DNA of 42,622 nucleotides from the NCBI GenBank assembly GCA_010906935.1, contig JAAFHC010000017.1, forward strand, positions 1-42,622, read 5' to 3'. Positions 6,793 to 42,361 of this stretch are shown here, piece by piece. The notes below the pieces were generated by a model. It made no database searches. It had not been told where the DNA came from and saw nothing but the letters and a program-made list of their open reading frames with translations. A program made the translations under genes and the position numbers. This DNA comes from Gelidibacter sp. (GTDB taxonomy: Bacteria > Bacteroidota > Bacteroidia > Flavobacteriales > Flavobacteriaceae). The first letter of the stretch is position 1. Each line of letters begins with the position of its first letter.

Positions 6793-6851
6793 TTTGAAGT
6801 TTCAAACTTCAAATTTGAAAATGAAGTTTCAAGTTTCAAGTTTGAAAATTT

Positions 6852-6951
6852 AACTTTTAACTTTTAACTTTTAACTTTTAACTTTTAACTTTTAACTTTT
6901 AACTTTTAACTTTTAACTTTTAACTTTTAACTTTTAACTTTTTTTAACTTT
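6852..6951. repeat. Tandem heptanucleotide array (AACTTTT)n
   Basis: 12 perfect consecutive copies of AACTTTT from 6852 to 6935, then two slightly expanded copies; preceded by TTTCAAGTTTGAA-like imperfect repeats. Confidence 0.97.
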
Positions 6952-41229: not shown

Positions 41230-41826
41230 TTACGATTTTGCAAAAGAAATAAGCGGTTCAATTTTATTTATATCTGCTAATTTAACCGCTTTTATATAAT
41301 TCTCTCTTGCATTAGATTCTTTTACTAAACTGGATCCTCCCCAGGTAAAAAATGATTTTTTAAATAATTTTTCCATAATTAAATCTGCCATCAAGCGAGA
41401 ATGCCTTCCGTTTCCATTTGAGAAACAATGTATGCTAACCAATCTGTGCTTGAAGCGAATTGCTATTTCTTCTTCAGAATACTTGTTGTTTTCTATCCAA
41501 AACAAACAATCATCCAACAATTGTTTTAAGGAAGTTGGAATTAAATAGCTTATTACTCCAATATTTTTTTCTGATTGCCTGAATTTACCAGCCCAATTCC
41601 AAACATCACCATACATTTTTTTGTGAAGATTTTTTATATACTTTTCTGAAAGTAATTGCTCCTTATTTAACTTTCTATTAAACATCCATTGTATAGCTTT
41701 TTCAATATTTTGCTGTTCAAACTCATCTAATTCCTGCTGAGTACTAATGGATTTTATAATCAGCCCATCATTCTCTTCTTCATCAAGTGGTGTTTGCCCA
41801 TCAATATATTCAATATTTAGTCCCAT
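41230..41826 (-). CDS. Fic family protein, mobile mystery protein B-like (putative toxin)
   Basis: 198 aa; Fic-like motif 'HCFSNGNGRHSR'; N-terminus 'DGQTPLDEEENDGLIIKSISTQQELDEFEQQNI' typical of mobile mystery protein B. Confidence 0.88.
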   Translation of the reverse strand: MGLNIEYIDGQTPLDEEENDGLIIKSISTQQELDEFEQQNIEKAIQWMFNRKLNKEQLLSEKYIKNLHKKMYGDVWNWAGKFRQSEKNIGVISYLIPTSLKQLLDDCLFWIENNKYSEEEIAIRFKHRLVSIHCFSNGNGRHSRLMADLIMEKLFKKSFFTWGGSSLVKESNARENYIKAVKLADINKIEPLISFAKS

Positions 41827-42281
41827 AAATACTTCGGCATTTCGTTTTTAATCTCCATTGTTTTTTGAGCAATCGACTTTTTTATGCGTTCGTTAGAATT
41901 TTGTTGGTCTTCCAAAGTCATCGTTACATTAGTACGCATCACAATTTGTCTTGCAATTTCTTGTGCTCTTTGTTCTATCATTTCCTCCAAACTATTATGT
42001 TTAGAGACAAAACCATATACCAATTTCATATCCAACCCACGTGCAGTTTCGCTTAATGAATTTAATGTAATTGTTCCATTGGCTTCCCTTTCCTCAATTT
42101 CCTTGGTACTTTGGGCAGTAATATTTAAACGATTACCCAACTGTCTTAATGACATTTTGAGTGTTGTACGAATGGTATGTATCCACCCATTTGGAGGTAT
42201 GATTATTGTTCCTAACTCTTTAAATGGAGCTAATTTTCGCTCTGTTTGGTCTAATAATAATAATCTATTTGCATTTTTCAT
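41817..42281 (-). CDS. HTH (Xre-like) protein, mobile mystery protein A-like (putative antitoxin/regulator)
   Basis: 154 aa; 'GWIHTIRTTLKMSLRQLGNRLNITAQSTKEIEEREANGTITLNSL' HTH; overlaps the Fic gene by 10 nt. Confidence 0.87.
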   Translation of the reverse strand: MKNANRLLLLDQTERKLAPFKELGTIIIPPNGWIHTIRTTLKMSLRQLGNRLNITAQSTKEIEEREANGTITLNSLSETARGLDMKLVYGFVSKHNSLEEMIEQRAQEIARQIVMRTNVTMTLEDQQNSNERIKKSIAQKTMEIKNEMPKYLWD

Positions 42282-42361
42282 AAGGGTATAGCCTTAAAAT
42301 TATATCACAAATATAAGGTTATAACCTTAAAAAACAAATTTTATTTTAAGGCTATAACCTT
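42282..42361 (-). promoter_or_regulatory. Operator/promoter region of the HTH-Fic operon with three 14-bp palindromes
   Basis: AAGGGTATAGCCTT (42282-42295), AAGGTTATAACCTT (42315-42328), AAGGCTATAACCTT (42348-42361); minus-strand TTG (42337..42335)-19 nt-TATATTTG (42315..42308). Confidence 0.75.

Follow-up and report, generated by a model that had tools for sequence, protein, structure and literature searches.

What acts at the three palindromes that lie directly 5′ of a helix-turn-helix (HTH)–Fic gene pair in Gelidibacter sp., and do they make this operon its own regulatory target? The window analysed here is a stretch of 42,622 nucleotides that forms an entire contig (C243), which places the palindromes ~260 bp from the contig end. 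Both encoded proteins scored above the curated cut-offs of NCBIfam models TIGR02612 and TIGR02613, which are of the type 'hypoth_equivalog' and carry no function. The genes are arranged in the order A then B, with the start codon of MobMystB overlapping the 3′ end of the MobMystA gene:

41817–42281, minus strand: mobile mystery protein A (MobMystA, TIGR02612), 154 aa, 131.8 bits against a curated cut-off of 122.6; a 434/Xre-like HTH protein, predicted autorepressor and antitoxin.
41230–41826, minus strand: mobile mystery protein B (MobMystB, TIGR02613), 198 aa, 243.1 bits against a cut-off of 124.4; Fic protein (PF02661), predicted toxin.

The initial annotation of this DNA had placed three near-identical palindromes at 42282, 42315 and 42348, the middle one perfect, and proposed that the HTH protein represses its own operon through them. 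Spacing and symmetry were both borne out. Three AAGGNTATANCCTT palindromes start exactly 33 bp apart 5′ of the MobMystA/B operon, their sequence as a predicted MobMystA target being AAGGYTATAACCTT:

42282–42295, unstranded: proximal operator O1, AAGGGTATAGCCTT, 6/7 pairs (one mismatch), adjoining the HTH start codon.
42315–42328, unstranded: middle operator O2, AAGGTTATAACCTT, a perfect palindrome (no mismatch) within the promoter spacer.
42348–42361, unstranded: distal operator O3, AAGGCTATAACCTT, 6/7 pairs (one mismatch), upstream of the −33 element.

This arrangement was beyond chance at the level of both the window and the genome. When at most one mismatch was allowed, the pattern matched three times in the window, in each case at an array site (chance expectation 0.10), and three or more matches occurred in 0/100 shuffles of the window. 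Across the 3.3-Mb genome, the only exact matches were the three array sites; one-mismatch matches were scattered and no more frequent than those of a reversed control pattern. A scan of the window without a preset motif, for three palindromic 18-mers that resemble one another and lie anywhere between 20 and 60 bp apart, also ranked the array first, the next entries representing a 7-bp tandem repeat. At positions 6849–6942 of the window, the 7-bp unit TTTAACT is perfectly repeated in tandem for 13.4 copies, beside two 27-bp repeats. The proposal that the sites occupy the same face of the helix about three turns apart held approximately: 33 bp equates to 3.14 turns at 10.5 bp per turn, so that successive sites lie roughly on one face, but the alignment is not exact and some relatives use 32 bp.

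The array also coincides with a promoter-like string on the minus strand (TTTG-N19-TATATTTG, 42338 to 42308), which places O2 in the 19-nt spacer, touching the −7 element. The first base of the ATG is 42281 and O1 begins directly beside it, at 42282. These coordinates agree with the earlier description of a middle site between a −33 TTG and a −7 element with a 19-nt spacer, a distal site upstream and a proximal site at the start codon. The two promoter elements are as follows:

42335–42338, minus strand: −33 element TTTG, Bacteroidota-type, a promoter match by sequence only.
42308–42315, minus strand: −7 element TATATTTG, Bacteroidota-type, likewise matched, with its TTTG beginning 10 nt away from the centre of O2.

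The same geometry recurred in relatives. In 23/40 arrayed Bacteroidota loci, a TTTG began precisely 10 nt from the centre of an operator, in most cases the middle one of three scored sites; in the other 17/40, this offset had no TTTG.

We compared MobMystA loci from Bacteroidota genomes and proteobacterial plasmids by extracting their upstream DNA and scoring the self-similarity of each promoter by lag against dinucleotide shuffles, with no motif assumed. Among 64 standalone Bacteroidota MobMystA promoters, a lag of 33 was strongest (combined z 19.8), followed by 32 (10.9) and then by a next-best value of 4.9; the best lag was 32 or 33 in 52 of these promoters. Lag 33 was also dominant in the proteobacterial plasmid loci (z 10.0; 10/12 loci), including the Ti plasmid of A. 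fabrum C58, where four ATCAG...CTGAT-type sites lie 33 bp apart. In a set sharing <60% protein identity, from which the window was left out, lag 33 retained a z of 15.5 and the best lag was 32 or 33 in 22/33 loci, about one third of these divergent homologs having no clear 32/33 array. No 32/33 signal was detected upstream of 28 unrelated HTH_3 genes of the same class (z 1.0 for lag 33, −0.7 for lag 32), and chance or a generic feature of HTH promoters was rejected on the basis of these promoters and the shuffles. A lack of repeats in homologous operons had been named at the outset as grounds against autorepression; most of these operons did carry repeats. The 47 loci with a confident array carried three sites (33 loci), four (12) or five (2), and the centre of the proximal operator was most often 7, 12 or 13 bp upstream of the ATG. 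Residue 149 (P versus R) tracked 33- versus 32-bp spacing but seems to follow clade and was given no weight. As the same pitch occurs in Proteobacteria despite different promoter sequences, it is most simply ascribed to the protein and would reflect contacts between neighbouring dimers.

Whilst pitch was conserved, operator sequence varied widely (AAGG, TCAGG, GTCAG, GTAAAC, ATATAC, TGTTGT and others), the operators of relatives being palindromes around a mostly TA-TA-like centre. Covariation between this sequence and the protein was assessed in 39 non-redundant loci, with the following region of MobMystA as the presumed reader:

42084–42122, minus strand: recognition-helix region, residues 54–66, ITAQSTKEIEERE; residues 56, 57, 58 and 61 covary with operator bases.

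Distances between operators correlated with those between recognition helices (Mantel r 0.52), and the helix retained a signal once the rest of the protein was partialled out (partial r 0.29, p 0.002). Column 57 gave the highest partial r of any single column (0.47). Some signal was also retained by segments 44–53 (partial r 0.22) and 67–80 (0.21), and C-terminal residues 119–154 correlated with operator distance too (0.28). The top-ranking base–residue pairs included op4–57, op5–58 and op6–61, these positions being bp2, bp3 and bp4 of the 14-bp core. G5 was present in 18/21 loci with S/T58 versus 0/18 without, and an outer G in 19/22 loci with K/R56 versus 0/17 without. In a tree from which the helix columns had been excluded, the S/T58–G5 and K/R56–outer G traits changed 8–9 and 5–6 times, respectively. 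Supported independent pairs numbered only 2–3, with none opposite for residues 56, 57 and 58, which is too few for significance, and the covariation is partly confounded by descent. By comparison, promoter overlap and helix covariation together indicate that the sites overlap the putative operon promoter and are specific to the predicted antitoxin.

The second part of the question concerns the partner of the HTH protein. Two further features are relevant here:

41904–41924, minus strand: TMTLEDQ, residues 120–126 of MobMystA; M-x-L-E-x-Q, resembling the Fic inhibition motif (S/T)xxxE(G/N).
41395–41430, minus strand: Fic signature HCFSNGNGRHSR of MobMystB, with N where D/E is usual.

Class I Fic antitoxins use the motif (S/T)xxxE(G/N) (PMC5033356), in which the Glu and the second Fic-motif arginine are joined by a salt bridge (PMC5033356; PMC3667792). 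M-x-L-E-x-Q occurred in the C-terminal half of 66/66 Fic-linked MobMystA proteins and in 0/10 orphans linked to MscS-like genes, as scored by an M.LE.Q test, since the more permissive pattern [STN]xxxE produced spurious matches in gapped orphan rows. The residue preceding M was S/T in 49/66, N in 16/66 and H once. Relative to (S/T)xxxE(G/N), the Glu was present in 66/66, whilst the sixth position was G/N in 13/66 and mostly D or A otherwise, the window copy reading TMTLED. This likeness, together with the loss of the segment in Fic-less copies, makes M-x-L-E-x-Q the best candidate for a neutralising element, and it is likely the antitoxin element of MobMystA. The toxin–antitoxin reading proposed for this operon thereby gains independent support from a Fic-inhibition-like motif that every Fic-linked homolog retains and the MscS-linked orphans lack.

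The Fic protein of the window deviates from canonical HxFx(D/E)GNGRxxR, N replacing D/E, and retains both signature arginines. N occupies this position in nearly all MobMystB homologs, one of which (L079) has D. Given that D/E is conserved here in nearly all adenylylating Fic proteins (PMC3667792), the enzymatic activity of MobMystB may differ from theirs. MobMystB also matched PADLOC PDLC04839 (PDC-S04) at 1.1e-23; PDC-S04 is a candidate phage-defence system only. Comparison with solved structures gave weak matches to NmFic and others for MobMystB and no meaningful match for MobMystA, and an AlphaFold model of the HTH protein from its single sequence (pLDDT 40.7) was left unused. In L033, L081, L045, L047 and L084, MobMystB frames were apparently disrupted or cut short, next to a MobMystA that is intact and an operator array.

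Orphan MobMystA genes were found mostly directly 3′ of an MscS-like channel gene (L025, in the same genome as the window at contig C52:1489–1947, and L012–L017, L024, L026 and L027). No Fic gene was detectable beside these ten, the retrieved downstream DNA being short for three of them, and their promoters contained no 32/33-bp array. This suggests that the MscS-linked orphan is a repurposed regulator. A further copy, L018 (same-order genome, 1501–1923), has a precise deletion of TMxLEDQ with no Fic gene nearby.

The closest rival to plain autorepression is conditional cooperativity proper, a general mechanism described in PMC8630535, by which Fic would co-repress with MobMystA at a low toxin ratio and break the array at a high one, like Phd/Doc. 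Such control is widespread, though not general, among autoregulated type II toxin–antitoxin operons. Several fixed-pitch operators in a predicted HTH-antitoxin/Fic operon would suit such a scheme. However, L018, which has neither Fic nor M-x-L-E-x-Q, retains a 33-bp array of three AAAGTTATAACTTT-type sites, so that the array is independent of the toxin in this case, and we consider conditional cooperativity possible but doubtful. Binding of another host regulator, with MobMystA not acting at the sites, is very unlikely. A role for MobMystA there is predicted by comparison of sequences, which leaves room for such a factor, but the genome holds no exact site copies elsewhere, and the arrays accompany the MobMystA gene from one phylum to another, their sequences covarying with its recognition helix. 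A role in RNA, such as translational control of the HTH gene by hairpins, would be in keeping with a proximal palindrome in the probable leader, beside the ATG. This was rejected, as the hairpin in the leader has little stability (−3.2 kcal/mol) and folds no better than shuffles (z −0.11); moreover, O3 is located 5′ of the promoter and a fixed pitch would have no role, which makes the RNA reading highly improbable. Mobile-element features (iterons, recombination or transposase sites) might be expected of genes common on plasmids, but we give them scarcely any credence given arrays 5′ of MobMystA, recurring promoter overlap and a sequence that tracks the HTH.

That MobMystA dimers repress their own operon from an equally spaced array is very probably the correct explanation, and the best of those considered. 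Repression by the HTH protein at three sites, as initially proposed, is strongly supported by comparison, given that the array follows the operon across phyla, covaries with the helix and recurrently overlaps the promoter. The three palindromes would be operators of the MobMystA encoded just downstream, a dimer of which would read each 14–18 bp palindrome by its HTH, with residues 57, 58 and 61 predicted to face successive half-site bases, much as in the 434 repressor. Dimers on adjacent sites, separated by some three turns of the helix, probably make contact and bind jointly; such cooperativity is likely, the fixed pitch being the one pointer to it. Occupied O2 would block the promoter spacer and occupied O1 the leader and start codon, so that together they would make the operon repress itself. 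The Fic partner would be neutralised by the C-terminal TMTLEDQ of MobMystA, a segment predicted to slot into the active site of the Fic protein as the inhibitory helix does in class I Fic antitoxins. If MobMystA were lost or titrated away, the toxin would then be released and the promoter would open again. DNA binding, repression, toxin neutralisation and toxicity are what we infer for MobMystA/B from these comparisons.

The phage 434 repressor has an HTH of the same kind and, as in the MobMystA operators, a 14-bp palindromic core. It reads its operator in the order Gln29, Ser30, Gln33, an order matched by the MobMystA pairs 57/bp2, 58/bp3 and 61/bp4 suggested by covariation. The 434 operators are not known to be set at a 33-bp pitch, nor is the 434 repressor known to carry a Fic-inhibition motif. 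Class I Fic modules (VbhTA, EcFicTA) likewise combine a small upstream protein bearing an (S/T)xxxE(G/N)-like motif with a Fic protein retaining both arginines (PMC5033356, PMC3667792), whereas the MobMystA motif is degenerate and fused to an HTH DNA-binding domain, and the MobMystB signature has N for D/E. The PaaR2/YdaS operators (paaR2-paaA2-parE2) and lambda OR likewise involve a phage-repressor-like regulator and equally spaced palindromes over toxin–antitoxin promoters (PMC8630535). In paaR2-paaA2-parE2, four inverted repeats occupy a 97-bp divergent region and the regulator is a separate protein (PMC8630535), whereas MobMystA is predicted antitoxin and HTH protein in one, with a 33-bp pitch and one putative promoter. 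In open-access text, we found no earlier report of MobMystA operator arrays or of the Fic-inhibition-like motif, and the name 'mobile mystery' appears there in just four papers, once in each.

The mobile mystery A/B pair is widespread, occurring on both plasmids and chromosomes, and its function has so far had no name. The array, the covariation and the motif give it a specific, testable identity as a self-repressing Fic toxin–antitoxin module. More broadly, MobMystA may be a 434-like repressor fused to a class-I-type Fic inhibitory segment and assembling at a fixed 32/33-bp pitch conserved across phyla, with helix and operator co-diversifying to yield many mutually insulated autoregulated Fic modules, a picture for and against which we see the case as evenly balanced. 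The homologs represent a natural series of protein–operator pairs in which repressor specificity evolves at fixed spacing.
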